Shown here: positions 1 to 27,775 of the stretch, piece by piece
Numbering within the stretch: position 1 is the stretch's first letter
Layout of the letters: every line of letters starts with the position of its first letter
NCBI RefSeq assembly: GCF_040702995.1
Contig: NZ_CP159992.1
Location: 4,117,501 to 4,181,500, forward strand
DNA length: 64,000 bases
Source: Paenibacillus sp. AN1007
Lineage (GTDB): Bacteria > Bacillota > Bacilli > Paenibacillales > Paenibacillaceae
Reading direction: 5' to 3'
Notes under the pieces: model-generated
Told to the model about the DNA's origin: nothing
The model's database searches: none
Seen by the model: the letters and a program-made list of their open reading frames with translations, nothing else
Program-made: the position numbers and the translations under genes

Positions 1-14
1 ATTATATTATTTTA
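1..14 (-). repeat. Edge-truncated, worn end of a cassette repeat
   Basis: The first bases read TATTATTTTATACGAC, close to the repeat end TATTATGTTATACGAC seen at 22231-22248. It lies 15 bases beyond the stop of the first GNAT gene, where a cassette repeat is expected. Most of the repeat lies outside the window. Confidence 0.4.
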
Positions 15-29
15 TACGACACCAATTTC

Positions 30-527
30 TTAGTACCTGTGTAATTCAAGTCTACATCCCTTTTCACCTTTGAACTTTCCCTCTTCAAAAACAAAGTCTT
101 TTACTTTTTTAAATCCGTTCTTCTCCAGAACCTTTAACGAGCCTGTATTGCTCACCAAGCAGGCACTTCTGAGAACATGGAGATCTAATTCACTAAATGC
201 AAATGCCGCTGCCTTTTGGGCTGCGGCTGTACCTATGCCCCGGTTCCAAAAAGGAACGGCAATCCAGTAATCCAATTCTGCTGTTCTCTCTTCTAGGTCC
301 ACAGCGTTTAAAGACATAACACCCGCGAATCGGTCATCAACTAAAATACTAAATACATAAGATATTCCCTGTTCACGCCTGCCAATGACCATTTTTGCCC
401 ATGATTCTCCTGCCCCATCTGGATAAGGATACGGAACGTTACTTGTCTCTGAAATTAGAGGGTTACCTGCATACTCCTGTACAAATGCAGCATCGCTAGG
501 TAATACAAATCGAAGCATAACCTCCAT
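30..527 (-). CDS. GNAT family N-acetyltransferase (RimJ/RimL type)
   Basis: A 165-residue single-domain GNAT predicted to transfer an acetyl group from acetyl-CoA to an amine; the substrate is unknown. The acetyl-CoA loop motif R-G-I-G-T-A lies at about residues 95-100, after the beta-4 strand ELDYWIAVPFW. A C-terminal SLKVLEKNGFKKV segment is typical of the RimJ/RimL branch. The ATG at 527 follows an AAGGAGATT ribosome binding site. It is the most distal complete gene of the array and lies 21 bases from the next gene upstream with no clear repeat between them. Family sure, substrate unknown. Confidence 0.85.
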   Translation of the reverse strand: MEVMLRFVLPSDAAFVQEYAGNPLISETSNVPYPYPDGAGESWAKMVIGRREQGISYVFSILVDDRFAGVMSLNAVDLEERTAELDYWIAVPFWNRGIGTAAAQKAAAFAFSELDLHVLRSACLVSNTGSLKVLEKNGFKKVKDFVFEEGKFKGEKGCRLELHRY

Positions 528-548
528 AAGATTAATCTCCTTTGTTAT

Positions 549-1193
549 TTAACTTCTTTTAGACTTAAGATAATCAATAGCGTGCCAATGATCATTAAAA
601 ACAAATACTTTTTGACCTTCGAATTTTTCCATTTTACATTCATCGCTCTCAATAACATCTGCGATCTGAATGACGAACTCGTTCATATTATTTGCTATTA
701 CTAACTTTTCGTTTTCATCTCTTCCGAAATTAATAATTTGACCAACCTCACCCTGTTCATCCGGGTCCAGATCAATTCCAATGTAATTCCCGCCATGATC
801 CTCTGCAATAGGTATCCATAACGGATTGTAACACTGACATTTAATTTTCTTCGGATCAATGGACGTGCATTGTGCATTCAAGTTCAGAACATCTGATTTT
901 GAAAGAGAAGAAAGTAAATCGTTTTGCAGCTTCCACTGTTCATAAACTTTTCCAATAGTAAGAAATTTCATTCCTAATATAGATCCTGCTATAAACTTAT
1001 CGTTATCTCCGTTACATATAGAATAGAGTTCTCTCAGATCCTCGGGCAGCTTGAACCCAAATTGTGCTTCGTATTGCTGCAGCTCGTTCTCCGAAACTCC
1101 TTTATTAAAATTTTTAGAGAATCCTTTGTATTTTTTCTCATAGTTAAGTATTAATCTATCCCAATTTCTTTTCATTTCACTCTTATTAAGCAT
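549..1193 (-). CDS. SMI1/KNR4 (SUKH) family protein
   Basis: A 214-residue cytoplasmic protein. The N-terminal third carries the SMI1/KNR4 signature: a helix VSENELQQYEAQFGFKLPEDLRELYSICNG, then later an acidic patch PIAEDHGGNYIGIDLDPDEQGEVGQIINFG. In bacteria this fold is common among immunity proteins of polymorphic toxins, but it also occurs in orphan proteins. No toxin is adjacent, so an immunity role here would be a guess. The gene sits between an inositol-phosphatase-like gene and a GNAT in a repeat-poor, older-looking part of the array. Confidence 0.8.
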   Translation of the reverse strand: MLNKSEMKRNWDRLILNYEKKYKGFSKNFNKGVSENELQQYEAQFGFKLPEDLRELYSICNGDNDKFIAGSILGMKFLTIGKVYEQWKLQNDLLSSLSKSDVLNLNAQCTSIDPKKIKCQCYNPLWIPIAEDHGGNYIGIDLDPDEQGEVGQIINFGRDENEKLVIANNMNEFVIQIADVIESDECKMEKFEGQKVFVFNDHWHAIDYLKSKRS

Positions 1194-1232
1194 TAATTAG
1201 CCCCCTTAGAAGGATCTTTTCTGCTTCCAGCG

Positions 1233-2033
1233 TTAACTCAATCCTTCTCTTACCGTTCTTAATAATTCTTCCATGTGGTCTGCGTGACATGCAATGAGAT
1301 AAGGTTCTTCCTTCATGCCGTTAAAGGGATTTCCTTCAAAATCAATAACCAGTCCCCCCGCTTCCTTAACCATTAAGATTCCTGAATACAAGTCATCACC
1401 TTCAGAATTGTATAAAATAATCCCATCGATATCTCCTTTGGCCAACATGCACCATTGAACCGTCGGAGCCCATAATCTTAACATGCGCTTGAATCTAATA
1501 TCAATGTGTTGTCTTAGTTTTACGGCTTTGGGGTCGTTTTGTACGGCGTGACCTTGAATCCAGCCGATATTTCCTTTGAAAATATTCGGACTGCTCTTCA
1601 TTTGTATTCGTTGATGATTACAGCTTGTCCCTTCACCGATAACCGATACAAATAAACGTTCTGTTAGCGGTTCGTAGACCACTCCAAGAACAGGCTCTCT
1701 TCTGTACATCAAGGTAATGGATATCGAAAAAACAGGTAATCCAATTGCAAAATTATTTGTTCCATCTAAAGGATCAATCAACCATAACCAATCGTCCTTC
1801 ATTCCAATTAGCCCTGCCTCTTCGCTGTGTATCTGATGATTTGGAAATGTTTTTTGTATTTGTTTAATAATGATTTCTTCACACATATGATCTACTTCAG
1901 TAACCACATCCCCAAATTCATCTTTAGATCTCAGTTCGAGAACGTTATCAAACTTCTCTTTACAGATGAGACCTGCTTCTTGAATAACATTTATCGCAAT
2001 CTCTTTTGCAGCTTGAATAATTTCACGATCCAT
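1233..2033 (-). CDS. Inositol monophosphatase family protein
   Basis: A 266-residue Mg2+-dependent phosphatase of the inositol monophosphatase/CysQ superfamily. Metal-binding motifs are present: HSEEAG near residue 65 and WLIDPLDGTNNF near residue 82. The second family motif, usually PWDxAAG, reads EGDDLYSG here, so the Trp is missing but the metal-binding Asp is kept. The substrate cannot be told from sequence. The start is set at the ATG at 2033, preceded by GAGGTGCGTT; an upstream ATG at 2078 lacks a good ribosome binding site. It lies 39 bases upstream of the SUKH gene with no recognisable repeat between. Confidence 0.85.
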   Translation of the reverse strand: MDREIIQAAKEIAINVIQEAGLICKEKFDNVLELRSKDEFGDVVTEVDHMCEEIIIKQIQKTFPNHQIHSEEAGLIGMKDDWLWLIDPLDGTNNFAIGLPVFSISITLMYRREPVLGVVYEPLTERLFVSVIGEGTSCNHQRIQMKSSPNIFKGNIGWIQGHAVQNDPKAVKLRQHIDIRFKRMLRLWAPTVQWCMLAKGDIDGIILYNSEGDDLYSGILMVKEAGGLVIDFEGNPFNGMKEEPYLIACHADHMEELLRTVREGLS

Positions 2034-2100
2034 AACGCACCTCATATCGATTTTGATTTTATCTGATGATTTCATCATTATCCGAAGCTGTCTTTATTGT

Positions 2101-2682
2101 TCATCTTTTTAACTCTAGATTGTTCATATTGTAGTCTTCTCCCGAGAAATTTAATACTCCTGAAAATCCACTGAATTTCCATTCGCCGTTTTCGTCAGGT
2201 ATGAAAATATACTCTCTGTTCCATGACTTTAACTTTTCGTCATCACCGACATACTCTTCTTTGATGGTTAGTGTAGTTTCATTGAAAAACTCGTTCTCAT
2301 ATTCGGTCTTGTGAACCACCGCTTTTGTTATCTTGATTCCTTCATGGAAGATGGTTGGGTATAGAATGTTTTTATTGATGTATATATCTGCATTAGGCTC
2401 AGCATCCATATTATTGATACATAATATCCCTAAAATATCCTGTGCGCGGTTTCCAAATTCTTTCGTAAAAGACTGTTCCATTTCTTTATACTCCGGTTTG
2501 GTTAGCTTTTCTCTCAATGCTGCGTCGACAATCATTTTTTCTTTTGCTTTTACCATTTCCACTGCAGTGTTTATGTCAAAATCAATCGTTTCTTCCGTTA
2601 TCAATTTGGATTGTTGTGAGGATTGACAAGCTGCCAGGAGAAAAATGACTGTAATACAAATGAATAGTTTTACTTTTTTCAT
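2101..2682 (-). CDS. Putative lipoprotein, unknown function
   Basis: A 193-residue predicted lipoprotein. It starts MKKVKLFICITVIFLLAAC, a basic n-region, hydrophobic core and lipobox LAAC, so Cys19 should be lipidated and the protein held on the outer face of the membrane. The rest is charged, soluble and not recognised; it may have a nuclear-transport-factor-like or DUF4878-like fold, but this is weak. The ATG at 2682 is preceded by AAAGGAGG, which favours it over an upstream ATG at 2703. Confidence 0.7.
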   Translation of the reverse strand: MKKVKLFICITVIFLLAACQSSQQSKLITEETIDFDINTAVEMVKAKEKMIVDAALREKLTKPEYKEMEQSFTKEFGNRAQDILGILCINNMDAEPNADIYINKNILYPTIFHEGIKITKAVVHKTEYENEFFNETTLTIKEEYVGDDEKLKSWNREYIFIPDENGEWKFSGFSGVLNFSGEDYNMNNLELKR

Positions 2683-2703
2683 AATCAGATTTCCTCCTTT
2701 CAT

Positions 2704-2804
2704 GACGGCGTGTTCAAATTATAATGTGCTTCATATCCGCATCGATATTGGAACAAGTTTTATTCTTGTGTCGGATCTGCTGTGCATCTCATGATTACGT
2801 ACTA
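2704..2804 (-). repeat. Possible heavily worn cassette repeat
   Basis: This 100-base gap has no gene. Its last part, TGTCGGATCTGCTG then CATGATTACGTA, weakly resembles the end of the repeat at 19275-19364 (GTCGGATCAAGG, CATGAGTATTACGTTA). The left half is not recognisable. Confidence 0.25.
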
Positions 2805-3815
2805 TCACGCGAATTTAAGATGTTGGTAAATAAGGTTAGTCACATTATTCGAAATGTCGTCTACGTCCGTGGTCGAAAGATTATTTAAAACGATAATAGA
2901 AACCTGATCATCAAGGTATCTTGTTATTTTGTTTTTAAAGCCAACAATTCCACCTCCATGGAAGACAGTTTTACTGGGTCTGTTATGAATCAACTCCTCT
3001 TTTACAAACCAACCATAACCGTAACCAAATCCATAATCCGTGAACAGCCGCTGCATTCCGTCACTTGTAACTAACTTGTTAAACGACAACGCACGATCCC
3101 ATTTATATAAATCTTCTGTGGTAGACAGCAGATCCCCCCCACCAGCTGCAATAGACATATCAATAAAGGCGGAATTTACAAACCTTTTTGTATTGTCCAT
3201 CTCATAACCGGATGCTCTTTGTGAGATAATCTCCCTATAATTATCCGGCCTTGTACTATTCATTAATAATGGCGAAAATATATTCTTCGTTAGGAATTCT
3301 TCATAAGTCTGTCCTGTTACAACCTGAATCAGTTGAGCTAATAGCAAATAACCCGAATTGGAATATTTAAATTGAGTTCCTGGCTGAAAATCTAATGGAA
3401 GTTTCATGATTAATGCTGTGGTCAAATTTAGTGGATTAAATTCCTTCATTAATGTATTGAAGTCTTGAAGTTGAGTAATATTAGGTATTCCTGACGTGTG
3501 AGTTAACAGATGATGGATGGTTATATGCTCACCATAGATATAGTTCGGGAAAAATTTTGTTAATGTATCCCGCTCATTCAGAATCTTTTGCTCGATCAGC
3601 ATCATTACAGCCATTGAGGTGAACTGCTTTGTTATTGAACCAATTCGGAATTTAGTCTCGGGGGTGCATTGAATGGAATGCTCTCTGTTCGCTAATCCGA
3701 CTCCTGCGCTGAATATGATTTCGTTGTTCTTTGTTACCAAGACAGAACCACTGAACTCTTCCTTCTGGAACTTATTCTCCAAGTAGTCTTGTAATGTAGT
3801 TGATAGACGATCCAA
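2805..3815 (-). CDS. Serine hydrolase, beta-lactamase/DD-peptidase fold
   Basis: A 336-residue class C beta-lactamase-like protein (Pfam Beta-lactamase family) without signal peptide. The catalytic SxxK is SITK near residue 60, the YxN motif is YSN near residue 150, and the KTG-equivalent is HGG (FHGGGI) near residue 290. Members include DD-peptidases, esterases and lactamases, so substrate is open. The start is a TTG with a weak ribosome binding site. A second, diverged member of this fold sits at 13117-14052 in the same array. Confidence 0.85.
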   Translation of the reverse strand: MDRLSTTLQDYLENKFQKEEFSGSVLVTKNNEIIFSAGVGLANREHSIQCTPETKFRIGSITKQFTSMAVMMLIEQKILNERDTLTKFFPNYIYGEHITIHHLLTHTSGIPNITQLQDFNTLMKEFNPLNLTTALIMKLPLDFQPGTQFKYSNSGYLLLAQLIQVVTGQTYEEFLTKNIFSPLLMNSTRPDNYREIISQRASGYEMDNTKRFVNSAFIDMSIAAGGGDLLSTTEDLYKWDRALSFNKLVTSDGMQRLFTDYGFGYGYGWFVKEELIHNRPSKTVFHGGGIVGFKNKITRYLDDQVSIIVLNNLSTTDVDDISNNVTNLIYQHLKFA

Positions 3816-3872
3816 TAGATCACCACTTTCATATATTGTATGTATTTTTATTATGCTCCAGGCGGTTTCGTT

Positions 3873-3902
3873 CAGCGTTCCCGCAGCATGAGAGCGTTAT
3901 CA
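3873..3902 (-). repeat. Cassette repeat with internal deletion
   Basis: CAGCGTTC is fused directly to CCGCAGCATGAGAGCGTTAT. The two ends match the two ends of the repeat at 19275-19364, but the 60 or so bases between are missing. It lies downstream of the Nudix/serine hydrolase boundary, where a repeat is expected. Confidence 0.5.
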
Positions 3903-3937
3903 ACTGATGCCATTGTTTCTATTGCATGTCACTCCGT

Positions 3938-4399
3938 CTATTGTGTGCTGAAATGTTTAATATGTCTTTCGTCTGCTCTGTCTTGAAGCAGCTCTAGCAA
4001 CCCATCTGGTACCAACTTTACTTTCGAATTCCCTTTAAAGTAATTTAGCGGTTTCCATACTGCTTTAAAGGGTTTGATTCCCTCTATTCCATCGATCTCT
4101 TTCATATCGTAAAGGGACTTATTCATAAGTTCAGCCTCATAAATAAAATCATTTTCGTGTCCGATTTGATTCTGGTAGTTAAATATATTTTCAATGATAC
4201 CAATCAACTTAGGTTCTGAAATATCTGCATCAATTTCTTCTTTTACTTCACGAATGACGGTAGTTTTGCTGGGTTCTCCATATTCAACTGTTCCCCCAAT
4301 AGGTCGATAATACGTTAGGTTGCCAGTCTTATCAAAAAACTCTTCTAACAGTATCTCCTCTCCTCTTCGGATAACACAAAGTGAAACGGTTCTAATCAT
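3938..4399 (-). CDS. Nudix hydrolase
   Basis: A 153-residue Nudix protein predicted to hydrolyse a nucleoside diphosphate linked to another group. The Nudix box is complete, from GGTVEYGE at about residue 35 through REVKEEID at about residue 50 (G-x5-E-x7-R-E-x2-E-E). The ATG follows GGAGGACATTATTA. It is one of two Nudix genes in the array (the other at 11488-11979); they are not close copies. Substrate unknown. Confidence 0.88.
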   Translation of the reverse strand: MIRTVSLCVIRRGEEILLEEFFDKTGNLTYYRPIGGTVEYGEPSKTTVIREVKEEIDADISEPKLIGIIENIFNYQNQIGHENDFIYEAELMNKSLYDMKEIDGIEGIKPFKAVWKPLNYFKGNSKVKLVPDGLLELLQDRADERHIKHFSTQ

Positions 4400-4419
4400 T
4401 AATAATGTCCTCCTTACTT

Positions 4420-4495
4420 ACGGAATGGCACCATGCACTATTTTATGTGGTACGGACCGAGGATGAATGTCCGATGCGTGAATATTATGTTTTCT
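4420..4495 (-). repeat. Half-worn cassette repeat (short type)
   Basis: The right part, CGGACCGAGGATGAATGTCCG followed by GCGTGAATATTATGTT, matches the repeat at 20904-20996 closely. The left part is poorly preserved and its TAACGTTCCTG box cannot be found. Confidence 0.6.
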
Positions 4496-4530
4496 TATGC
4501 GCACTTCTTTAAAATATCCCAATACATTCT

Positions 4531-4995
4531 TTAATTCTTCTCTTTCAAAAGGGCTTCCCATTCTTCTATTGACAATTTATTGGATATATGCTTCAAATTT
4601 TCAGGGACATATACAAAACACATTAATTCTAAACTATTTCCATCTGGATCATTGAAGTAGACCGAGGCATTGCCCTGATTAGGCCTAACAAATGGATCTA
4701 TTGACCCTCTCTTCCCAAATGGAACAGGCTCTATTTCATTTGTTCGAAGCCATTTCACACTCTCTCGAAGATTTTCATAACTCACTCGAAATGCGATATG
4801 CCTTAATGATGGATGATAAGAAGTTTTATGCTCTTCACCCTGCCATAGTCCCAGCCAACTTTTTTCTTTTTCAATCCAGAAGAAAGCTGTATCTTCATCT
4901 CTCCAAGCCAGTTCTAGTCCTAACTTAGAGTAAAATTCAATGGATTGATGTAAATTACTCACGGGTAAATGTGCTTCATATAATCCTCGTATCAT
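4531..4995 (-). CDS. VOC (glyoxalase/bleomycin-resistance) family protein
   Basis: A 154-residue VOC-superfamily protein. It has two beta-alpha-beta-beta-beta halves; the second ends in YFNDPDGNSLELM, a typical metal-ligand Glu strand. The first His ligand fits AHLPVSNL at residue 8, and HIAFRV near residue 67 supplies a second. Members include glyoxalases, fosfomycin-modifying enzymes and dioxygenases; resistance function is possible but not shown. The gene is followed by a half-worn repeat. Confidence 0.82.
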   Translation of the reverse strand: MIRGLYEAHLPVSNLHQSIEFYSKLGLELAWRDEDTAFFWIEKEKSWLGLWQGEEHKTSYHPSLRHIAFRVSYENLRESVKWLRTNEIEPVPFGKRGSIDPFVRPNQGNASVYFNDPDGNSLELMCFVYVPENLKHISNKLSIEEWEALLKEKN

Positions 4996-5027
4996 TTTTT
5001 TCTCCTTTCACTTTTGCCAGTTTCAGA

Positions 5028-5066
5028 TAACGCCACTATAGTCATGTACCCGGAAGAGGTTGTCAG
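5028..5066 (-). repeat. Worn head of a cassette repeat
   Basis: TAACGCCACTATAGTCATGTACCC followed by GGAAGAGGTTGTC parallels the head of the long-type repeats (TAACGTTCCTGTATTCATGAACCC, AACGGGGTTGTC), including a hairpin ACCC-GGAAGA-GGTT. The right half is replaced by the toxin-antitoxin remnant. Confidence 0.5.
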
Positions 5067-5081
5067 TCAAGCTGTCTCTAT

Positions 5082-5310
5082 GGAATCTTGGTCAATACAA
5101 TAGGCTTGGATGGCCTATCCCTTCTTAAGTCATCGGAATCAAAACCACCTTTGGCGGTCAACCATTGGGTAGGTTGTTACTTTCTCTTGACATCAAAGTA
5201 TCGCATCTTTTACTATGGCCTCACCTCCTTTCGAAGGAAAACCACGCCTACTTAATATTGAATTGTGTCAATATTTTACCTTTATTTACATCTACGTACA
5301 AGCGTTCTTA
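5082..5310 (-). pseudogene. Degenerate copy of the type I toxin-antitoxin cassette
   Basis: This stretch is clearly homologous to the toxin-antitoxin cassette at 19794-20100. It keeps the antitoxin segment (AGGCTTGGATGG), the bidirectional terminator half CACCTTTGGCGGTCAACC, the toxin ribosome binding site (CCTCACCTCCTTTCGAAGG on the plus strand) and the promoter region. The toxin reading frame (5177-5216) has lost its ATG (now ATA), has lost about 50 bases and hits a stop after seven codons. It is therefore dead. Confidence 0.75.
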
Positions 5311-5313
5311 AGT

Positions 5314-5849
5314 TTAAACGTTGATTTTAGAAATCTTCTTTAAAATAATTCTCGCAATTTCTTCTATTTCTTTATTATCTGTGTCAATATGTTCTTGAAA
5401 TTTTATATCTTTAAATGTGATTACACCTGCGTTTGTGTGCTTCCGATACAATTATCAAATTTGTCCCCACGTTTCTCAATTCGTTTTTTGATTGTTTCTT
5501 CTGTCGCTAATAAGCAAAAATGAAAAGTATCTTGATCAATACTTCTAAATCCATTGACTATGTAATCAAAATTTTCAGACTTATATATCGTCATTGGAAC
5601 AATGAGATGTTTCTTATACCTATTCATTAATTCTTGAGCTGTCTGCACAACAAGTATTCTCCATAGTTCTATATCCTGAAAATCATCCGTTCGTTCTTCT
5701 TCAAAGTAGATGTCTTCTGTTATCATTTTTCTCAACATATACCCAATTTCTTCAGGATCATAAATCATACTATTAGGTATTAGAGGCTGCAGGTGCTGAG
5801 AAGTCGAGGTCTTGCCGGATCCAAATGACCCATTAATCATAATAATCAA
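5314..5849 (-). pseudogene. TmrB-like P-loop kinase with a frameshift
   Basis: The protein starts MIIMINGSFGSGKTSTSQHL, with the Walker A GSFGSGKT and NSMIYDPEEIG that mark the TmrB/AAA_33 family of small cytosolic ATP-binding proteins (TmrB gives tunicamycin resistance in B. subtilis). The open frame stops at 5421 after 142 residues. In another frame the sequence goes on from about 5445 as RKHTNAGVITF, then HIDTDNKEIEEIARIIL, which is a good family C-terminus, to a TAA at 5314-5316. One base has been gained or lost near 5440-5450. It may be a true pseudogene or a sequence error. Confidence 0.75.
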
Positions 5850-5998
5850 GTGATCACTCCTTCTGGCTTAGATTCATATTAGGAACTTAGCCGATAATGC
5901 TGATATATTCGCGAATTGAGATGCTTAAAGGAACGTAGAAATTAGTTATTGAATCTAAACACAACACAGATAAGGATATGAAATGACTCGAGAATGGC

Positions 5999-6565: not shown

Positions 6566-6621
6566 GAAACTCCTCTCCGATCCTATAAATTTTCACATCC
6601 TGCAGTATTGAAATCATATTT

Positions 6622-6684
6622 CTTTGCGTTTTTGTATTCATGACTCAGTGCATGCTTAATAATCGCAATGTGAATATTATCTCA
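6622..6684 (-). repeat. Shortened, worn cassette repeat
   Basis: TGTATTCATGACTCAGTGCATGC, then AATCGCAATGTGAATATTAT, keep both outer arms of the repeat (TGTATTCA against TGAATATTA), with little of the internal arms left. It follows the 6720-7139 gene on the minus strand. Confidence 0.5.
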
Positions 6685-6719
6685 GATGATACAATGCGGT
6701 TCCTGAGTAACCTAGAAGA

Positions 6720-19787: not shown

Positions 19788-19793
19788 ATTCTT

Positions 19794-20903: not shown

Positions 20904-20996
20904 TAACGTTCCTGTATTCACGACTCGGCGTACGTCGAGTGTCCGGCGAATGCCCGACCCAGGACGAATGTCCGCAGCGTGAATATTATGTTAGGC
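20904..20996 (-). repeat. attC-like cassette repeat (short type)
   Basis: Starts TAACGTTCCTGTATTCACG, arm 1 ACTCGGCGTACGTCGAGT, then GTCCGGCGAATGCCCGAC, arm 3 GGACGAATGTCC, end GCAGCGTGAATATTATGTTAGGC. The right box reads GCCTAAC on the gene strand, a perfect RYYYAAC. Confidence 0.92.
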
Positions 20997-21001
20997 GAAT
21001 T

Positions 21002-21676: not shown

Positions 21677-21698
21677 AATATCACTCCTTGATTTCACC

Positions 21699-21811
21699 TA
21701 ACGTTCCTGTATTCACGAACCCCAACGGGGTTGTCTGCTGAAATTCCTCTTCGAAATCCTTCCAGCAGACCAAGGCTCCATCGGAGCCGCTGCTTGAATA
21801 TTATGTTATTG
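21699..21811 (-). repeat. attC-like cassette repeat, reference copy (long type)
   Basis: All parts are clear. Outer boxes: TAAC 21699-21702 and GTTA 21805-21808. Outer arms: TATTCA 21710-21715 and TGAATA 21795-21800. Arm 1: AACCCC 21718-21723 and GGGGTT 21727-21732. Arm 2: GTCTGCTG 21733-21740 and CAGCAGAC 21763-21770. Arm 3: GGCTCC 21774-21779 and GGAGCC 21783-21788. The fold is thus a closing stem with three arms. On the gene strand it ends GTTAGGT, a perfect GTTRRRY. Confidence 0.95.
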
Positions 21812-22131
21812 GACGGTCTTGCCTTCTTCGAATCTACTGCACATTTCTCTTCAATGTTTCTTCATGTATGTGTTTTTTGTTCTTTCATGGTTCTCATTTT
21901 TTATGTCATTTCATTTTCACTGGTCTTCGTTCTCAATATGTCCTTGATCCTCAATCTCTTTTGATCTTTTGAATGTTACTTGACCTTTTTTTAATCCGAT
22001 TTTTAAAATCGCTTTTGTCCTTCAATGTCATTTTATCTCTTCTTTGATCCTTTTTTGTTAATCGATTTTTGACCTTTCAATTCTTTCATCCGATCCATTC
22101 AAGGCTTTAATCCATTGCAAGTCTGTTCCAA
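21812..22131 (-). other. Cassette without a convincing gene
   Basis: A 320-base stretch between two near-identical repeats. On the minus strand it is purine-rich with GATC and AAAG motifs and the short palindrome CGATTTTAAAAATCG; the best frames are 21 and 26 codons, both Lys-rich and without a good ribosome binding site. It may encode a small RNA, a promoter, or be a decayed gene. A longer plus-strand frame overlaps the repeat and is not credible. Confidence 0.5.
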
Positions 22132-22244
22132 TAACGTTCCAGTATTCATGAACCCCAGAGGGGTTGTCTGCTGAAATCCCCATCGAAATGCATCCAGCAG
22201 ACCAAGGCTCCAACGGAGCTGCAGACGTGAATATTATGTTATAC
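22132..22244 (-). repeat. attC-like cassette repeat (long type)
   Basis: Starts TAACGTTCCAGTATTCATG, arm 1 AACCCCAGAGGGGTT, arm 2 GTCTGCTG and CAGCAGAC, then GGCTCCAACGGAGCT, end GTGAATATTATGTTATAC. Same length and layout as 21699-21811. Confidence 0.92.
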
Positions 22245-22273
22245 GACGGAATTACATCTTGAAATTACCTTCA

Positions 22274-22440
22274 CTATTGGTTTTCTTCAGGTACATATAC
22301 AATTAAATTTGATAATCTGTAGTTAAATTTATCGCATAGCTGAATACAGTTTTCAGCTTTGTTGTTTCTATATTAGTTTTCCTATACAGCTGATTAATTT
22401 CAGTCCGACTCACAAATGACAAACTACTCAGTTTTAGCGT
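22274..22440 (-). pseudogene. Decayed paralogue of the XRE regulator
   Basis: This matches the intact regulator at 24006-24230: SRTEINQLYRKTNIETTKLKT in one frame, then KFNYRLSNLIVYVPEENQ and a stop in another. The first third, with its start codon, is not recognisable, and at least one frameshift separates the two parts. Like the intact gene, it is the last gene before a repeat. Confidence 0.75.
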
Positions 22441-22474
22441 AGCTATTCCCATTTACTTCGTAAAGACCTGATAA

Positions 22475-22512
22475 TGTATGCTCCCTTTGAACTCTGAGTT
22501 AGACGATGTTGA
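22475..22512 (-). repeat. Possible worn cassette repeat end
   Basis: TATGCTCCCTTTGAACTCTGAGTTAGACG resembles a degraded repeat end followed by GTTAGACG. Lies between the ATPase stop and the XRE remnant. Weak. Confidence 0.25.
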
Positions 22513-22519
22513 ATTAAAT

Positions 22520-23851
22520 TTATCTCCTAGATTTTAGTTCGATTTGTATCTCATGAGTCTTGAGTTTTCTCTTTCCACCATCAGTTTTTATATAAACTTC
22601 ATCTTTGCCAGTAGAAAAAAAATATTCAGAAGAATATGGATAAACAGTAACTTCAACAATGTATTTATCCTCTAAAACTTTCATATCTTCATCATATACT
22701 TCAACTAATAAAATTGAATAAACTTGACTTGGTACAGGCGGAGATATTTGAGAGAGTTTATTTACCACATCTCTTCTTAATTTATCTCTTTCACTATATG
22801 CAAGCTTTACACCCATAACAGTCCTATCATCACTAATTCCCCATAAAACTTTACCGATTATGTTTCTTTTAATATTTAGGTAAGCTACAACATATTGATC
22901 TACAGTACTTAGAATCGAATCAATTGAATTTATTCCCTTAACCTCTTTAAATTCCATATCAATATTTTCTTCAAGCTTAATTTTTGAATTCATAACATAT
23001 TGGACTATCTTATTTTTGGTGATAGGAGAATCCGATGATTGTATCCTGGTGGATAAAATAGAGTCCAAAAAATCATATTTAAATCCACATTTGTTTCTAT
23101 CGCTGGGGTTTGTTACATGTAGTAATTCAATGGACTTTTTTTCCAATTTTAACGAATGTACATGATAACTACTCATAACTATAATTACTTGTATTTTTCT
23201 GGAGATTGAGTCTAATAAACTCATTAGGATTGAAAATGAATTAGAATCAAGATCGCCTCCAAATTCATCAATTAATATTATTTTTCTCTTATCCTCTAGA
23301 GCAATCGACAACTGTCCCAACAGTTCTAGAATATATCTCTCTCCTCCAGAATAAATTCGATATGCATTTTTTACTTTTGTTTTTTCAACTCGATTAATTA
23401 TTTCTAAAAAAAAGTCGATTATATCACTTTCAAGTTTAAGCTGAAAAAGATGTTTTTTTATAATATCTATATCAAACTCCAACGAATTATTCTTATAACT
23501 TATAATTATTGGCTCATACTCAACAATATCAATATTTCTTAAATGAGATATTCTATTGCTTGAAAGACAACGTGTGAAATTCTCAAAATAGAATATACCA
23601 TTTGAATAACTCCTTATCACTTCAATTTGACTATCAGATAACTTGAATTTCAATGAAATATGCATATTATCTATACCTGAAGTACTATTAACTCTAATCG
23701 ATTCTCTTCCATAAAAAACAGCAGCGATAGCACCTAGTAATTGTGTCTTCCCGGATCCGTTTCTACCAACAATTACTGTAATATCTTTATTGAATTTCAT
23801 TTCAAATGTTTCAAATGATCCAAAGTTATTTATCATTATCTTTTCTAGCAT
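22520..23851 (-). CDS. AAA ATPase fused to a Schlafen-type AlbA_2 domain
   Basis: A 443-residue protein. The N-terminal part is an SMC/RecF-like ATPase: Walker A GRNGSGKT near residue 33, signature YSGGERYILELLGQL near residue 166, Walker B KIILIDEFGGDLDS near residue 190. From about residue 300 it carries an AlbA_2 (Schlafen) domain: MEFKEV, AYLNIKRNIIGKVLWGISDDRTVMGVKL. AlbA_2 domains bind or cut nucleic acid and occur in prokaryotic regulators and phage-defence proteins. The fusion suggests an ATP-driven nucleic-acid sensor or nuclease; defence is inferred, not shown. The ATG follows GGAGGTCAT. It was probably followed by its own XRE gene, now dead at 22274-22440. Confidence 0.8.
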   Translation of the reverse strand: MLEKIMINNFGSFETFEMKFNKDITVIVGRNGSGKTQLLGAIAAVFYGRESIRVNSTSGIDNMHISLKFKLSDSQIEVIRSYSNGIFYFENFTRCLSSNRISHLRNIDIVEYEPIIISYKNNSLEFDIDIIKKHLFQLKLESDIIDFFLEIINRVEKTKVKNAYRIYSGGERYILELLGQLSIALEDKRKIILIDEFGGDLDSNSFSILMSLLDSISRKIQVIIVMSSYHVHSLKLEKKSIELLHVTNPSDRNKCGFKYDFLDSILSTRIQSSDSPITKNKIVQYVMNSKIKLEENIDMEFKEVKGINSIDSILSTVDQYVVAYLNIKRNIIGKVLWGISDDRTVMGVKLAYSERDKLRRDVVNKLSQISPPVPSQVYSILLVEVYDEDMKVLEDKYIVEVTVYPYSSEYFFSTGKDEVYIKTDGGKRKLKTHEIQIELKSRR

Positions 23852-23875
23852 ATGACCTCCAATATTAAATGTCGT

Positions 23876-23985
23876 CTATCGTTTCTGGATTCATAAACCT
23901 GTTAAGTTATCTGCTGAAATTCCTCTCGAAATCCTTCCTGCAGACCACGGCTCCACAAGGAGTCGTTGCTTGAATATTAGGAATC
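23876..23985 (-). repeat. attC-like cassette repeat (long type), nearest to the recombinase
   Basis: Starts CTATCGTTTCTGGATTCA, then ATCTGCTGAAATTCCTCTCGAAATCC (arm 2 with CTGCAGAC), GGCTCCACAAGGAGTC, end GCTTGAATATTAGGAATC. The terminal boxes have drifted, so this copy may be less active than those at 20-22 kb. Confidence 0.82.
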
Positions 23986-24005
23986 GCTTCTCGACACGGC
24001 TCTCA

Positions 24006-24230
24006 CTACTTGTTTTCTTCTGGTACATATTCGATCAAATCAGACAACTTACAATTAAACGTATCACACAACTTGAATAGTGTTTCTAATTTTGTTGTTT
24101 CTATATTCGTCTCCCTATATAACTTGTTAATTGAGTTACGACTTAGACCTGATCTCGTCATCAATTCGGTTATATCATCTATTCTATGTTCTGCCATGAG
24201 TTCTCGTATATTGCACTTAATTACGTTCAT
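24006..24230 (-). CDS. Cro/C1-type (XRE, HTH_26) transcriptional regulator
   Basis: A 74-residue DNA-binding protein that is little more than a helix-turn-helix: IRELMAEHRIDDITELMTRSGLSRNSINKLYRETNIETTKLETLFKLCDTFNCKLSDLIEYVP. The segment matches the HTH_26 family of small Cro-like regulators. It is the third gene of the cassette that also holds the 93-residue plus-strand gene and the reverse transcriptase. Repeated operator-like sites lie in the divergent promoter region (24295-24373), so it probably represses its own and the plus-strand gene. Confidence 0.85.
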   Translation of the reverse strand: MNVIKCNIRELMAEHRIDDITELMTRSGLSRNSINKLYRETNIETTKLETLFKLCDTFNCKLSDLIEYVPEENK

Positions 24231-24294
24231 CTTTTCCCCTCCATAGCTCTATCTTATCTTCCACATCCATAATCATCAACGAAAAGCGAAGTTT

Positions 24295-24373
24295 TAACTC
24301 TATAAAGTCAGATATTCACCTTGTAATTAACTTTATGAGGTTATATAATAACTTTGTAGAGTTAATTACAAGG
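24295..24373. promoter_or_regulatory. Divergent control region with promoter, three operator-like sites and a 14-bp inverted repeat
   Basis: A plus-strand promoter TTGTAA (24321-24326), 17 bases, TATAAT (24344-24349). Three related 13-base sites lie in and around it: AACTCTATAAAGT (about 24296-24308), ACTTTATGAGGTT (24331-24343), ACTTTGTAGAGTT (24352-24364). A perfect inverted repeat CCTTGTAATTAACT (24319-24332) and AGTTAATTACAAGG (24360-24373) encloses the -10 box. The sites fit a dimeric repressor, most likely the adjacent XRE protein. Confidence 0.7.
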
Positions 24374-24384
24374 AGGATAATTAT

Positions 24385-24666
24385 ATGGTTAATTCAATAG
24401 AATCGTTAACAGAACCACTAATAAGAATACGTTTAGAATTACTCTATACTGAGCTTGTGGAATGTCATACCGAATACAATCAGCTTTCTGCGGAGGCAGA
24501 TCAATACTTTAAAACTCTTCGTGATGCTTTACCTGATCAACTTCAACATACGGTTTTTCTTTACGAAGATGCTCAAATTTCTCTTCAGTCCATCTTAGAA
24601 AGAAGTATCTACATACAAGGTTTCAAAGACGCGCTACAACTATTTAGTGAATTACAAAATTGTTGA
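24385..24666 (+). CDS. Small helical protein (DUF6809-like)
   Basis: A 93-residue, mostly helical cytosolic protein, the only clear plus-strand gene in the array. The C-terminal part, ISLQSILERSIYIQGFKDALQLFSEL, resembles a family of small proteins (DUF6809-type) common in Bacillota mobile regions; likeness from memory. The ATG follows AAGGAGGATAATTAT, part of which is the right arm of the inverted repeat, so translation could be affected by that structure. It has its own promoter. Confidence 0.65.
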   Translation: MVNSIESLTEPLIRIRLELLYTELVECHTEYNQLSAEADQYFKTLRDALPDQLQHTVFLYEDAQISLQSILERSIYIQGFKDALQLFSELQNC

Positions 24667-24730
24667 CCTAAACTATGCCCAATAACGTACTTCTTAAAAA
24701 ATATCCAGGCATTATCCATAACTTCATTTT

Positions 24731-24771
24731 ATTAAACAAATACCAAAATGATATTTTGGTATTTGTTTAAT
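24731..24771. terminator. Perfect 19-bp hairpin between convergent genes
   Basis: Left arm 24731-24749 and right arm 24753-24771 (ends ATTAAAC and GTTTAAT) pair perfectly around a GAT loop. It lies between the stops of the plus-strand gene and the reverse transcriptase. It is A+T-rich and without a long T-run, so it may be a terminator or an RNA structure serving the reverse transcriptase. Confidence 0.6.
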
Positions 24772-24772
24772 A

Positions 24773-26422
24773 TCAATAATCTCCCCCTCCACCACCATGA
24801 GATACAATTCTTGATTCTCTCTGCGTTCTTGCTCCTCTATGCATATTGCTAGATGATACAGGTCTATAATTCATTTCTGATGGACTTGCAGGTTCTAATT
24901 GTAGTGTAGAATCGTAAAACTCTATATTTCTGGAAGAAAGTAATGAAAAAAAGTTGTCCGATGATATATAATTTGATCTACTTGTTAAAAAGCCTTTCTT
25001 GATTGCTTCGTAGGCAAATATCCAATGCTCTTGATAAAGATGCTCATGTGATAAATAATTATTCCACTCTGATATATTTAATCCAGTAGTTATCAAACCA
25101 TTACTCCTCATATCAAGTGCTACAATTCTAGAGAAAGAATCTTCGATTGTTGATAGCTCTTTTGCGGCGGCTCTACTAATTTTAATGTTAAGAGATTTCG
25201 CGACCCATAGATTCCATGAAACTTCATATCCATGACTATATTTCGAGTGATAACCAATGTTGTTATCAATAGTCTTAGCGATTTTTTTATAATTCAAATT
25301 ATAACCTTTATCTCTATATGCCAATAAAATTTCTATGACAGTAGGTATAACACTTGGTTCTGCAATCATAGAATTTAAAATGAGAGATTCAAACAATTCC
25401 CAATTATCCTTATGAACTAATACATTTTTTATTCTAGCCAATGAATATTTCAGAACATATTCATTAGGGTGTTTTTTGCTATACTCAAAAGCCTTCGAAA
25501 AAAAAGTAACCAAGTCTGTTTTCTGTCTTTTAATACTACTATGAAATTCATAATTACGAATTTCTGAGATCCAGTTAAACTCCAGTGGCTCTGGTAATGA
25601 ATAAATCATCGTTTTTTCAGGATTTATTTCTAATTCGTATCTTTTTACTACTTTATGAATTTTAGTAAGTGCCTCTTCAGCCTCAGATAATGAATTAAAA
25701 AAGAAATAATAATCATCAATATAACGCAAACCAGTTACACCAAGTTCTTGATAAATCTCTTGATCCATAACAGATCCTATTAATTCAGAAATCACATAAG
25801 AAGAATCTGGACCAATCGGTATTCCAATTGTTTGTTGATCCTGAGTATTTCTCACATTAGTGTCCAGTACATTTCCAAAATGAGCCGGTCCTCTATTCCT
25901 CTTCGCAAAAGTCTTTCCATGACAGGCCCATGGAATTGAATGTGTATAGATTGTAGGATAGTATCTTGAAATATCTGTTTTTAATACAAATCTACTGTTA
26001 GATGATAGAATAGGTACTATTTGAGGAATCTCACTAAAACTATGTTGTCGATTAATTGCTCTTTGTAGATGTTTATTTACCATTGGCTTAGTAAGAGAAT
26101 ATCTCGACTTTTTAATCTCATTTTTTATTGTTGTCCAATTGTCAATTATAGTCTCAAACACTTTTATTTGATGAAAGGGGTTGGGAATACTTAAGGTTCT
26201 ACGATGATGTTGAATCTTTGGAATACTATGTATACAACACTTACTACTATGTACCCTTTGTCCGTTAACTATTATTGACATTCCTGGAATTGATGAAGAA
26301 ATACTATTTATTTGAGTTCCAAGCATTTTTGTTGTAAATCCTGGAACTAGTTCTGCTGGAAAGTATCCTTTTAGTATACAATTCTGTAAAGTAAGTCTTG
26401 CTTGTCTCGCCAACTTCATCAT
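24773..26422 (-). CDS. Reverse transcriptase of an unknown/defence-associated (DRT-like) group
   Basis: A protein of about 549 residues with a reverse transcriptase core. The first catalytic Asp is in KTDISRYYPTIY near residue 152, the GIPIGPDSS motif is near residue 202, and YIDD is near residue 236. After the palm a 250-residue helical C-terminal domain follows, ending in a low-complexity HGGGGGDY. There is no maturase or HNH domain, so it is not a group II intron. The layout suits the unknown-group RTs, several of which are anti-phage (DRT) systems. Which class cannot be told by eye. No second RT, nitrilase or SLATT partner is next to it. The start is unclear: GGAG abuts the first ATG pair. 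Confidence 0.8.
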   Translation of the reverse strand: MMKLARQARLTLQNCILKGYFPAELVPGFTTKMLGTQINSISSSIPGMSIIVNGQRVHSSKCCIHSIPKIQHHRRTLSIPNPFHQIKVFETIIDNWTTIKNEIKKSRYSLTKPMVNKHLQRAINRQHSFSEIPQIVPILSSNSRFVLKTDISRYYPTIYTHSIPWACHGKTFAKRNRGPAHFGNVLDTNVRNTQDQQTIGIPIGPDSSYVISELIGSVMDQEIYQELGVTGLRYIDDYYFFFNSLSEAEEALTKIHKVVKRYELEINPEKTMIYSLPEPLEFNWISEIRNYEFHSSIKRQKTDLVTFFSKAFEYSKKHPNEYVLKYSLARIKNVLVHKDNWELFESLILNSMIAEPSVIPTVIEILLAYRDKGYNLNYKKIAKTIDNNIGYHSKYSHGYEVSWNLWVAKSLNIKISRAAAKELSTIEDSFSRIVALDMRSNGLITTGLNISEWNNYLSHEHLYQEHWIFAYEAIKKGFLTSRSNYISSDNFFSLLSSRNIEFYDSTLQLEPASPSEMNYRPVSSSNMHRGARTQRESRIVSHGGGGGDY

Positions 26423-26535
26423 CTCCAATATAATTTATTTTTATATTTGTAGCTGTTACCTGCGTGATAAACAAGAATTACAAAATTCTCTAATCCATGT
26501 ACTTATTTTGATTCATAATCTCTTTTGATTCTGTC

Positions 26536-26665
26536 GTATAACATCTAATTTATGTACTTCGTAAATACCACACATTCAACGTAATATATGAACTACGTAT
26601 ATGATAACCTATGGGGCGATATATGCGAAGAAAAATATGGTGAATAAGGGAGAAGTTTAAGGTGT
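26536..26665 (-). promoter_or_regulatory. attI-like primary insertion site (predicted)
   Basis: Between the recombinase stop and the first cassette. On the gene strand a core GTTATAC (26536-26542) is followed by GACAGAATC. The same GTTATACGAC follows the repeat at 22132-22244 on the other strand, and TTATACGAC is at the left edge of the window. Upstream of the core are imperfect direct repeats TATGTACTTCGTAAAT (about 26551-26566) and TATGAACTACGTATAT (about 26587-26602, plus-strand reading), such as a recombinase could bind. No inner arms are seen, as expected for an attI rather than an attC. Prediction only. Confidence 0.5.
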
Positions 26666-27775
26666 TCAATCTCCCATGTCCATCCGATCCAGTGGACTCT
26701 GAATACGCTGAATATTTTTCGTGCTCACATGCGTATATCGCTGCGTTGTTTGTGCACTGGTATGACCAAGAAGCTCTTGAATATAGCGCAGGTCTGTTCC
26801 GTTTTCCAGCAAATGTGTAGCGAAAGAGTGCCGCAACGCATGAATGCTGCACTTTTTTACAATACCCGCTCGTTGTCTAGCTTCTTCAAAAACCTTTTGT
26901 ACGCTGCGCTCCGTAAGATGTCGATCTGAAGATTGTCCTGGAAACAACCAACGATCGGTTTTATATTCAGCGATGTACCTCTGTACAATCTCCCAAGCAA
27001 GATGAGAGAGAAGAGTTCTCCGATCCTTTTGACCTTTTCCCTGCCTCACAATAATGGTTTGACGCTCAATATCCAAATCACTGTAGCGTAGACGAACGAC
27101 TTCGCCTACACGAAGTCCAGCTGAGTACGTAAGATACAGAATCGTCTTATGCTTGAGGTTAGTCACAGCTTTCAACAATTGGGTGACTTCTGTTTCAGAC
27201 ATGACATTGGGCAGCTTCGTTTGCTTTTTGGGACGTATATACTGAATTTCAGCAGGATGATGGAGGACATGTTTACAATAGAATCGAATCGCACTGATCG
27301 TCTGATTTACACTGGAATGGGAGACTCCTCGCTCAAGTAAACTTAAACAATAGGTTTGGACATGAGACGCGCTGATCCCGTTGTTGATCTGAGGAAGACT
27401 GGCCATAAATCGTTCAACCTGATTACAGTATGCTTTCATCGTTTTACGACTGTATCCTCTTAACTTCAAAGCTTGCTGCAATTCTTCTCTCTTCCATTGT
27501 GTTTGCTCTCCACTTAACTTCCAGTTCCTTAAAAGCTCACTCTCTACCCACAACTCCGGGGAAATCTCTACATCTAGCGCATCAAAGTGCTGTGTAAACT
27601 CCTGAAGAGATGCGTCTGAGTAGGGAATGATCCAGCGTTTCGTATCAGTCTCCCACCTTCTCCCTGTCACCTGACGAATCCGCTGAATATGCACCGTATT
27701 ATATGGAATTTGCACATATAATGTATCAGCAGAACCTTTGCTTAAAATGATGGCAGCTTCTGTTTTGTTGTTCAT
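26666..27775 (-). CDS. Tyrosine recombinase, candidate cassette integrase
   Basis: A 369-residue tyrosine recombinase. An N-terminal extension (about 15-65, LYVQIPYNTVHIQRIRQVTG) precedes a SAM-like core-binding domain (about 95-175) and the catalytic domain. The catalytic residues are Arg222 (AGLRVGE), Lys250 (GKGQKDR), His312 and Arg315 (HALRH), His338 (LGHTS) and Tyr347 (QRYTH). The end RIQSPLDRM recalls the R-S-P-L-D end of integron integrases. But Lys250 and His312 are only 62 apart, as in XerC/D, against about 106 in IntI1, so the IntI-specific insert is absent. The ATG at 27775 follows GAAGGAGAATGTCGT; a TATAAT lies near 27805-27810. It runs in the same direction as the cassettes. Confidence 0.85.
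   Translation of the reverse strand: MNNKTEAAIILSKGSADTLYVQIPYNTVHIQRIRQVTGRRWETDTKRWIIPYSDASLQEFTQHFDALDVEISPELWVESELLRNWKLSGEQTQWKREELQQALKLRGYSRKTMKAYCNQVERFMASLPQINNGISASHVQTYCLSLLERGVSHSSVNQTISAIRFYCKHVLHHPAEIQYIRPKKQTKLPNVMSETEVTQLLKAVTNLKHKTILYLTYSAGLRVGEVVRLRYSDLDIERQTIIVRQGKGQKDRRTLLSHLAWEIVQRYIAEYKTDRWLFPGQSSDRHLTERSVQKVFEEARQRAGIVKKCSIHALRHSFATHLLENGTDLRYIQELLGHTSAQTTQRYTHVSTKNIQRIQSPLDRMDMGD

Follow-up and report, generated by a model that had tools for sequence, protein, structure and literature searches.

Organization of the locus

Within the window (the whole 64,000-nt stretch of DNA that was analyzed), a tyrosine recombinase gene on the minus strand is followed, in the direction of its transcription, by an attI site and then by an array of short minus-strand genes, all pointing the same way, that runs leftwards from the recombinase. 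The GC content is 31 to 40% in the array and 45 to 55% across the remaining window, measured per 2 kb rather than per gene. The first-pass annotation had recognized a cassette array here, and both that observation and most of its reading hold. Of the approximately 26 kb of short minus-strand genes that it noted, positions 4384-26542 form the recognizable array; the two covariance models of the repeat, R1 and R2, gave no match at E ≤ 0.5 in positions 1-4383. A single SUKH gene lies at 549-1193, outside the recognizable array. The attI site at 26539-26665, absent from the first-pass annotation, is the clearest single feature of the locus. The genes and attI elements are as follows.

26666-27775, minus strand: tyrosine recombinase, 369 residues from ATG; the open frame reaches 27853
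26539-26665, minus strand: attI, kept between species up to the core GTTA (26539-26542) and divergent after it
26601-26629, minus strand: promoter-like TTCGCA-17-TATCAT within attI, directed into the array, 9/12 match
22132-26542, minus strand: first cassette(s), 4.4 kb, at attI in the window and missing at the same point in locus L050
24773-26428, minus strand: DRT-class defense reverse transcriptase (PADLOC Drt4 638 bits, Drt6 610 bits; under the NCBIfam Drt4 cut-off)
24006-24230, minus strand: HTH (Cro/C1-type) gene, within the first cassette(s)
22520-23851, minus strand: SMC/AAA ATPase with Schlafen AlbA_2 domain
4493-22131, minus strand: remaining cassette genes, some of them unknowns
18831-19292, minus strand: DUF4279
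18111-18692, minus strand: M23 peptidase
16962-17732, 15657-16172, 9128-9562 and 5999-6565, minus strand: GNATs
15095-15646, minus strand: AAA_33 kinase-like
13117-14052, minus strand: serine hydrolase, beta-lactamase fold
12212-12967, minus strand: methyltransferase
11488-11982, minus strand: Nudix

The cassettes have a median length of 0.83 kb, and for 127 of 142 the longest reading frame is encoded on the same strand as the array.

Structure of the attC-like sites

Cassettes end in attC-like sites of the form TAAC..TATTCA..arms..TGAATA..GTTA, in which outer boxes (TAAC/GTTA) and inner boxes (TATTCA/TGAATA) are separated by unpaired spacers of unequal length (4 nt versus 7 nt) and enclose three hairpin arms. 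The fixed orientation noted earlier for this palindromic repeat is borne out by both covariance models, which match on the minus strand (best E 9e-30 for R1 and 1e-34 for R2); the sole plus-strand match is the palindromic shadow of 20904-20993. Copies near the recombinase are almost perfect save the nearest one, and those far from it are decayed.

23877-23984, minus strand: decayed attC-like repeat, within the first cassette(s) (R2)
22132-22241, minus strand: attC-like repeat, 110-nt class, outer flank GTCGTA (R2)
21699-21808, minus strand: attC-like repeat, 110-nt class (R2)
20904-20993, minus strand: attC-like repeat, 90-nt cloverleaf class (R1)
20161-20270, minus strand: attC-like repeat, 110-nt class (R2)
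19581-19697, minus strand: attC-like repeat (R2)
19275-19361, minus strand: attC-like repeat (R1)
18700-18789, minus strand: attC-like repeat, 90-nt class (R1)
17959-18102, minus strand: weak attC-like match (R2, E 0.002)
16261-16332, minus strand: attC-like repeat, shortened (R1 and R2)
14084-14197, minus strand: decayed attC-like repeat (R2)
13007-13083, minus strand: decayed attC-like repeat, weak (R1 and R2)
12035-12145, minus strand: attC-like repeat (R2)
11365-11472, minus strand: attC-like repeat (R2)
10579-10690, minus strand: decayed attC-like repeat (R2)
6625-6684, minus strand: weak attC-like repeat (R1, E 0.05)
4384-4492, minus strand: attC-like match, the farthest from the recombinase (R1, E 0.001)

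Across 179 copies, repeat lengths range from 54 to 164 nt, with 90 and 110 nt the commonest, and copies are ≈90% alike inside a class. Each base of TAAC is retained in 170 to 174 of the 179, a figure that is partly built into the sample because the repeats were gathered by matching their end boxes. In the aligned cloverleaf, 95.5% of cells are paired and double changes occur in 14 of 30 pairs, a level that none of 500 shuffles reached; a pair-type measure, one of five measures of covariation, was equaled by 50 of the 500. Overall, the compensatory changes support a three-armed fold. The inner stem of the 90-nt class is paired at 8/8 positions with no bulge, so that its L stem lacks extra-helical bases. 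The terminal structure is variable, with three arms and several length classes. DNA folding energies favor neither strand (mean difference 0.3 kcal/mol, sd 1.8), and no Rfam family matches at its gathering score anywhere in the window.

The attI site and its promoter-like element

On the consensus of its relatives, attI contains the inverted repeat CTTCGCAAATACCACA/TGTGGTATTTACGAAG. The promoter-like element recurs in similar form in 24 of 27 loci and is a candidate Pc; scanning for such elements gave 7 matches in 1.6 kb against 3.3 expected. In the window, TACGAC behind attI is complementary to GTCGTA, the outer flank of the repeat at 22132-22241. In 20 of 26 loci, the first repeat likewise has a flank complementary to the three bases after attI, whereas shuffling gives 1.8 loci on average and never more than 7. 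This count scores as misses L054 and L056, where a scripted search misplaced the core. The search found no core in L062; judged by eye, the conserved stretch in all three of these loci also ends in GTTA.

A recombinase that lacks the I2 insert

The recombinase consists of an N-terminal extension of ≈90 residues, a SAM-like core-binding domain, and a catalytic domain without the I2 insert, and it ends in SPLDRM. Arg222, Lys247, His312, Arg315, His338, and Tyr347 are its catalytic residues and are invariant in 14 aligned sequences, in agreement with the first-pass annotation, which had credited the protein with a full catalytic set. That annotation counted 62 residues from Lys250 to His312; Lys247 is more likely to be the catalytic lysine, which would make the Lys-to-His spacing 65 residues. 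In IntI1, the spacing is 106 residues. According to excerpts of a published account, the I2 domain sits between these two residues in integron integrases, accommodates the extra-helical bases of attC, and had not been identified outside that group (PMC4792948). The absence of the insert, noted in that annotation, is confirmed by alignment: of the 12 rows compared among 36 aligned, all four IntI rows carry it and the other eight, our recombinase included, do not. It is also missing from the 14 aligned sequences in which the catalytic residues are invariant.

Profile scores place the protein outside the named families. TIGR02249, the IntI integrase model, gives a split match of 204.9 bits, below its cut-off of 265, and the XerC/XerD models are missed by a wide margin (TIGR02224, 195.6 bits versus 335; TIGR02225, 191.1 bits versus 329.6). 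In the phylogenetic tree that the first-pass annotation had called for, the recombinase falls outside the IntI clade (support 100/100), which stands apart from a Paenibacillaceae clade (99/98). An exclusive clade of these two has a p-AU of 0.017, for a grouping chosen post hoc, and the tree, in which long branches were flagged, does not resolve how the Paenibacillaceae, Bacteroidota, and IntI groups branch relative to one another. A HARP profile scores 16.5 bits against the N-terminal extension, under the Pfam cut-off of 25, and matches 9 of 14 relatives at E ≤ 1; we treat the resemblance as a lead. No convincing LexA box was found in 27 loci, where the best LexA-like matches carried two to five mismatches.

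From its constant position beside attI, we infer that the adjoining recombinase is the enzyme that carries out the cassette reaction; some arrays are without the gene.

Cassette joins and exchange between relatives

In Paenibacillus amylolyticus 27C64 (L050), attI is joined directly to a cassette whose counterpart in the window is 4.4 kb further in, past the DRT cassette, and the locus is without exactly the 4.4-kb defense cassette(s) that the window shows at attI. In addition, cassette c1 stands behind attI in one place and behind an attC in another with 100% identity, and cassette c4, 99.8% identical, is found in two species with different neighbors. The first-pass annotation anticipated that cassettes would differ between relatives with precise joins at GTTA. 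They do differ, and in most of the base-level cases the point of exchange is GTTA, whether in attI or in an attC. There is one exception: G038 carries an extra cassette between c8 and c9 that is missing from G034, and here the join lies away from GTTA. In G034 the repeat is a hybrid that combines a left half resembling the c8 repeat with a right half resembling the repeat before c9, which homologous recombination, gene conversion, or a left-box crossover would explain; homologous exchange probably accounts for it. Boundaries of homologous cassettes (17 left, 14 right) give coarser support for GTTA joins in a small sample, with the left side blurred because the last ≈16 bases are common to all repeats.

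Cassette ends provide a further signature. In integrons, R'' is complementary to R' of the same cassette. Here, the two ends of the same cassette are complementary at all three bases in 75 of 149 pairs. When both ends are taken from a single repeat, this is so in 10 of 179, and 1000 shuffles never gave more than 17. The other 74 pairs have at least one mismatch among the three bases, in part because missed repeats fuse cassettes. The cassettes behave as units with complementary ends, as expected if they travel as circles.

These observations bear on whether genes are simply shuffled by homologous recombination between like repeats, with no site-specific reaction. Repeats as similar as those within a class could indeed recombine, and the G038/G034 indel joins within the repeat body as that reading predicts, so some turnover probably does arise in this way. 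As the main explanation, we consider it very improbable and reject it: attI and attC share essentially only GTTA (AGATGTTA versus GAACGTTA), yet identical cassettes lie behind both; attI is joined directly to a cassette in L050; and crossovers in the repeat body do not predict complementary ends of the same cassette.

Distribution across genomes

As the first-pass annotation proposed, the repeat was sought beside relatives of the recombinase, and it is present downstream in every one of the 26 named Paenibacillus loci whose recombinase match covers 130 residues or more, a set that leaves out L064 (79-residue match; 12 repeats on the opposite strand) and L065 (24-residue match; 5 on its own strand). 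These 26 loci hold 139 downstream and 7 upstream copies on the recombinase strand and 1 on the opposite strand. Among 75 genomes of the genus, 71 have matches to the repeat model and 52 a detectable recombinase, and the repeat is therefore the more widely spread of the two. Many recombinase copies are truncated or interrupted, and 20 of the 75 genomes have one that matches without a break over 340 residues or more. Elsewhere in the Bacilli, relatives of the recombinase bear arrays with diverged versions of the site; in 8 kb at L122, from another Bacilli family, no convincing array repeats were found. The own genome could have shown a repeat scattered genome-wide, far from any recombinase; instead, it shows the repeat in three clusters only (from scoring 150 of the 2226 candidates of a first look), and at the head of each stands attI or an attI-like sequence (weak, 69%, for the cluster at ≈3.28 Mb). 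Two of its arrays, near 3.27 and 4.08 Mb, have no adjoining recombinase.

Such orphan arrays invite the view that a canonical IntI encoded elsewhere acts on what are just ordinary attC clusters (CALIN), with the adjoining recombinase incidental, and excerpts of the IntegronFinder 2.0 report do record a few CALIN in Firmicutes, without naming the genera (PMC9024848). We judge this very improbable and do not accept it as the main explanation, since TIGR02249 at E ≤ 1e-45 has matches in 2 of the 398 Bacillota genomes searched and in none of the four same-genus genomes among them, our own included, whereas attI and an array lie close behind the recombinase in 26 of 26 loci and relatives in other Bacilli bear arrays with their own diverged sites. 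A further reading takes the repeats for transcription terminators or REP-like elements and the region for a plain genomic island. It would suit hairpins after genes and low GC, and was rejected as extremely unlikely given the GTTA joins, attI, the conserved unpaired spacers and boxes, and the confinement to three clusters in the own genome; barring an assembly artifact, the attI junctions speak against it already.

A probable integron-type platform and its nearest relatives

It is very probable, judging from these comparisons, that the locus is an integron-type gene-cassette platform and not an IntI integron. The first-pass annotation had proposed just such a separate cassette system, integron-like in its working, with an N-terminally extended recombinase of XerC/D length, and comparison backs each structural part of that proposal. 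The recombinase would cut and join at GTTA. As in integrons, its attC-like substrate would be a folded single strand, and attI would be double-stranded. New cassettes would enter chiefly at attI, where the promoter-like element could drive their expression, and a recombinase acting in trans would serve the arrays near 3.27 and 4.08 Mb. With no I2 insert in the recombinase, the folded site would have to be recognized by other means, perhaps through the N-terminal extension.

The nearest described relatives are integrons, sedentary chromosomal ones among them, and the rAID clusters of Bacteroidales. With integrons, the locus shares a recombinase beside attI, co-oriented cassettes with complementary ends, attC-like outer boxes (AAC/GTT) with an unpaired spacer and variable terminal structure, cassette presence or absence exactly at attI, and a candidate promoter there; the cited text gives a length of 57 to 142 nt for integron attC. 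It differs in its recombinase, which lacks I2, scores under the TIGR02249 cut-off, lies outside the IntI clade, and is N-terminally extended; in its three-armed sites, with no extra-helical L-stem base in the 90-nt class; and in the recombinase gene, which is co-directional with the array and for which the search gave no convincing LexA box.

The recombinase resembles XerC/XerD and other Xer recombinases in catalytic-domain length and the absence of I2. Xer recombinases are associated with dif; the recombinase described here instead adjoins an array and attI. TnpF and other IS91-associated recombinases have a related catalytic domain without I2 (TnpF, 46% over 245 residues). In the two regions examined, however, they adjoin IS91-family transposases, and one of these regions (L095) gave no R1 match. 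TnpF clusters in the tree with array recombinases of Bacteroidota.

The rAID (recombinase-associated acquired interbacterial defense) clusters of Bacteroidales carry T6SS immunity genes, and in them a predicted tyrosine recombinase heads an array of short genes of low GC content that share one orientation and have conserved motifs between them; excerpts of their description contain no attI, attC folding, or precise joins (PMC12247911). The locus likewise has a tyrosine recombinase upstream of co-oriented genes with GC below 41% (per 2 kb, not per gene), but its host belongs to the Bacillota, outside the defining setting of a Bacteroidales host with orphan T6SS immunity genes. A recombinase on a Parabacteroides plasmid is 35% identical to ours and is followed by SMI1/Tdi1 genes and TAAC..ATTA repeats.

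We put at about even the chances that there is a second, IntI-independent branch of tyrosine recombinases with integron-type capture, spanning Bacteroidota, rAID included, as well as Paenibacillaceae and one or more further families of Bacilli. Such enzymes would recombine folded sites without I2, possibly via an N-terminal domain that binds DNA structure, and might represent the ancestral condition that gave rise to IntI. With a cassette system that has no I2, the origin of integrons becomes testable: either recombination of folded sites can do without the insert, or the sites are used differently. Integrons are described as very rare in Firmicutes, where, in excerpts of its report, IntegronFinder 2.0 found its one complete integron in Limnochorda pilosa (PMC9024848); in contrast, 71 of 75 genomes of a single genus carry the repeat of the present platform, which follows integron logic. 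Many genes of the arrays are uncharacterized, and an antiviral reverse transcriptase of the DRT class lies beside attI here, so the arrays may serve Gram-positive bacteria as a reservoir of defense genes.

Plasmid, phage, and viral sequences

Neither 72,556 plasmid records nor 50,697 phage records contain a match to a 90-nt repeat at E ≤ 0.001. An exact 16-mer scan of viral contigs returned 23 records, close to chance by a rough estimate rather than a calculation, and the paired motif occurs in only one of them (L079). A Bacteroidota recombinase had one weak match among viral contigs, and IntI relatives were seen there at six loci, one of them diverged.

Organization of the array

Judged from its sequence, the system in the window works like an integron, with a tyrosine recombinase that is not IntI, the integron integrase. 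Its head consists of two elements, which read as follows.

26666-27775, minus strand: tyrosine recombinase
26539-26542: core GTTA of attI, the conserved site behind the recombinase gene

Downstream of the recombinase, and in the same direction, lie ~22 kb of short genes with a GC content of 31-40%, compared with 45-55% elsewhere in the window. Between these genes recurs an attC-like repeat on the same strand, which reads TAAC-ATAA-TATTCA..arms..TGAATA-CAGGAAC-GTTA in the gene direction. Two covariance models, trained mostly on sequences of relatives with five window copies included, find it in the window at best E values of 9e-30 (R1, the 90-nt class) and 1e-34 (R2, the 110-nt class). Copies close to the recombinase are near-perfect with the exception of the nearest (23877-23984), and distant copies are decayed. 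Across the 6.64-Mb genome, a single contig, R1 matches at E ≤ 1 are confined to three clusters (3.268-3.279 Mb, 4.077-4.081 Mb, and that of the window) and lie on a single strand except for three weak palindromic shadows. Two stretches of the array (5087-5310 and 19819-20097) are related, 78-90% alike over pieces of 49-96 nt; they may be copies of one cassette that has either no gene or a small one. A SUKH (SMI1/KNR4) gene sits at the far end of the region (549-1193); this family is also among the cargo of the Bacteroidales recombinase-associated defence (rAID) clusters.

The attI site and its joins

The roughly 130 bp that follow the recombinase stop are conserved across species, with AGATGTTA at their end (GACGTTA in loci L056 and L062), beyond which almost every locus diverges from the rest. 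Among 26 loci, the majority base is present in 85-100% at each of the last 20 positions before the GTTA and in 69, 35, and 42% at the first, second, and third bases after it. An inverted repeat is part of the attI consensus. Inside attI, 24 of 27 loci also have a candidate promoter-like element, TTCGCA-17-TATCAT, directed into the array. In P. amylolyticus 27C64 (L050), GTTATTGGAACAGACTTG.. comes immediately after attI; in the window this cassette starts at 22135. The window has 4.4 kb between attI and this cassette that are absent in L050, bounded precisely from GTTA to GTTA; they hold one decayed repeat and genes for a DRT-class defence reverse transcriptase, an HTH protein, and an AAA/Schlafen protein. 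Both the architecture and the joins at attI are well supported. The other two clusters of the genome are also headed by attI copies, at 4.08 Mb with 92% identity (L090:8145-8223; no recombinase in the 20 kb searched) and at 3.28 Mb by a weak one with 69% (E 0.018; L089:17783-17854; no recombinase in the stretch searched). These two arrays are possibly served in trans.

Cassettes as units of exchange

Integron cassettes have complementary ends, and only circularization of the cassette makes their attC site whole. We compared the three bases outside the GTTA of one repeat with the three outside the TAAC of the next and found the two ends of a cassette fully complementary in 75 of 149 pairs. The ends of one physical repeat match fully in 10 of 179, and 1000 shuffles gave a mean of 6.9 and a maximum of 17 full matches. 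On the attI side, all three bases are complementary in 20 of 26 loci, against a shuffled mean of 1.8.

Only 17 homologous cassette pairs (≥80% identity) were found among 142 cassettes. On average over 17 left and 14 right boundaries, similarity falls after GTTA on the right side and before GTTA on the left, where the boundary is blurred because the repeat end is common to all. A closer comparison covered six genomes with 81 cassettes, 26 of them in shared clusters; attI-proximal cassettes are mostly different, and a distal block is common to two genomes. Within a single genome, cassette c1 follows attI in one copy and an attC in another, the two being 100% identical; the identity starts at GTTA (the preceding base differs) and stops at GTTA. 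Cassette c4 is shared at 99.8% identity by two genomes in which its neighbours differ, and identity stops one base past GTTA. One case runs counter to this pattern. Genome G038 carries an extra cassette between c8 and c9 (L155) that is absent in G034 (L156-L157), and here the join falls within the body of the repeat: G034 has a hybrid, with its left half from one G038 repeat and its right half from the other. Most likely the repeats underwent homologous exchange or gene conversion, and some of the turnover in the arrays probably reflects ordinary homologous exchange.

Structure of the repeat site

A cloverleaf of outer box, inner stem, and three arms was evaluated on 53 copies of 90 nt, in which pairing is kept in 95.5% of cells and drops to 27-37% in slid controls. 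Two-sided changes affect 14 of 30 pairs and 99 cells, compared with 34 cells in shuffles, none of 500 reaching this level; for pair types the count does not exceed chance (50/500 equally high). Selecting the copies by their end boxes biases the two outer helices towards pairing. The arms are free of this bias, and 12 of the 14 pairs with two-sided changes lie in them. The 110-nt class shares the three-armed plan with little variation (3/25 pairs doubly changed), and folding energy of the repeat shows no strand preference. The attC features used for comparison come from excerpts of PMC2727003. These patterns support, short of proof, use of the site as a folded single strand, and we infer a single-stranded mechanism.

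Association with the recombinase

A collection of 28 named loci was assembled by recombinase similarity, and these relatives assign the window to Paenibacillus. Where the match spans 130 residues or more, in 26 loci (L038-L063), repeats lie downstream of the recombinase without exception. On its strand lie 139 repeats downstream and seven upstream, with one on the opposite strand. The short partial matches L064 and L065 fall outside this set; L064 has 12 repeats, on the strand opposite to the match. Within the genus, the recombinase matches in 52 of 75 genomes (E ≤ 1e-40) and the repeat in 71 (E ≤ 1e-8). Recombinase copies are often broken: 20 of the 75 genomes have an uninterrupted match of 340 residues or more, and a few further copies are open from an inner start. 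We infer from this association a role for the recombinase in cassette exchange. Two attI-core-like sites on the same strand, ~30-37 kb apart, with at most three mismatches in 17 and repeats after each, were seen in G001 (L146-L148), G040 (L149-L150), G050 (L151-L152), and G041 (L153-L154); two recombinase copies were detected in G001.

The six catalytic residues are invariant across 14 aligned recombinase sequences. The window's enzyme scores 204.9 against a cut-off of 265 for TIGR02249 (integron integrase), 213.7 against 220 for NF040815, and far under the cut-offs for XerC and XerD. Its N-terminal extension shows only sub-threshold likeness to HARP. A tree of 36 rows places IntI (100/100) and the recombinases of Paenibacillaceae (99/98) in distinct groups; it does not settle the branching order of these two and the Bacteroidota group, and an exclusive IntI and Paenibacillaceae clade has a p-AU of 0.017. 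Among the 12 rows displayed, the Lys-His insert is present in 4/4 IntI and 0/8 others; an excerpt of PMC4792948 describes this I2 domain as not identified elsewhere. TIGR02249 was found in two of 398 Bacillota genomes (0/4 of the same genus within that set); the integrases above cut-off are L099 and L101 (G383) and L100 (G196). PMC9024848 reports a single complete integron in Firmicutes, that of Limnochorda pilosa. Among the matches listed from the open literature, which excludes subscription papers and most preprints, no title concerned such arrays in Paenibacillus.

Wider distribution

Among 398 genomes searched in the class, a recombinase match at E ≤ 1e-42 is present in 30, of which 13 belong to the same genus. 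Seven of 11 regions examined around such matches have clear repeats, all from the same family or order; six are arrays (L125, L126, L128-L131), and L127 has two repeat copies up to the contig end. In L121, from another family and with a recombinase 45% identical, the repeats are longer with the same TAACGTT..GTTA grammar. None were seen in the region around the L122 match, and L123 and L124 are short regions outside this judgement.

Beyond Bacillota, a Chryseobacterium plasmid (NZ_CP041688.1; L094:8992-18978) encodes a full-length recombinase relative followed by four structured repeats of ~280 nt, with unrelated genes between; the three displayed copies all end in GTTA. We read this region as a Bacteroidota cassette array without IntI. 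Two Persicobacter regions have no comparable short repeat among the repeat families listed. Relatives in Parabacteroides and Rufibacter are accompanied by TAAC..ATTA or GTTA repeats. The comparison with rAID clusters draws on excerpts of PMC12247911, with PMC8618304, also in excerpt, as a further printed source. On the Parabacteroides plasmid NZ_OY725747.1 (L140:6986-15083), the recombinase of a rAID-like cluster is 35% identical to that of the window and precedes SMI1/Tdi1 genes and TAAC..ATTA repeats, an arrangement suggesting that integron-type cassettes may make up rAID arrays.
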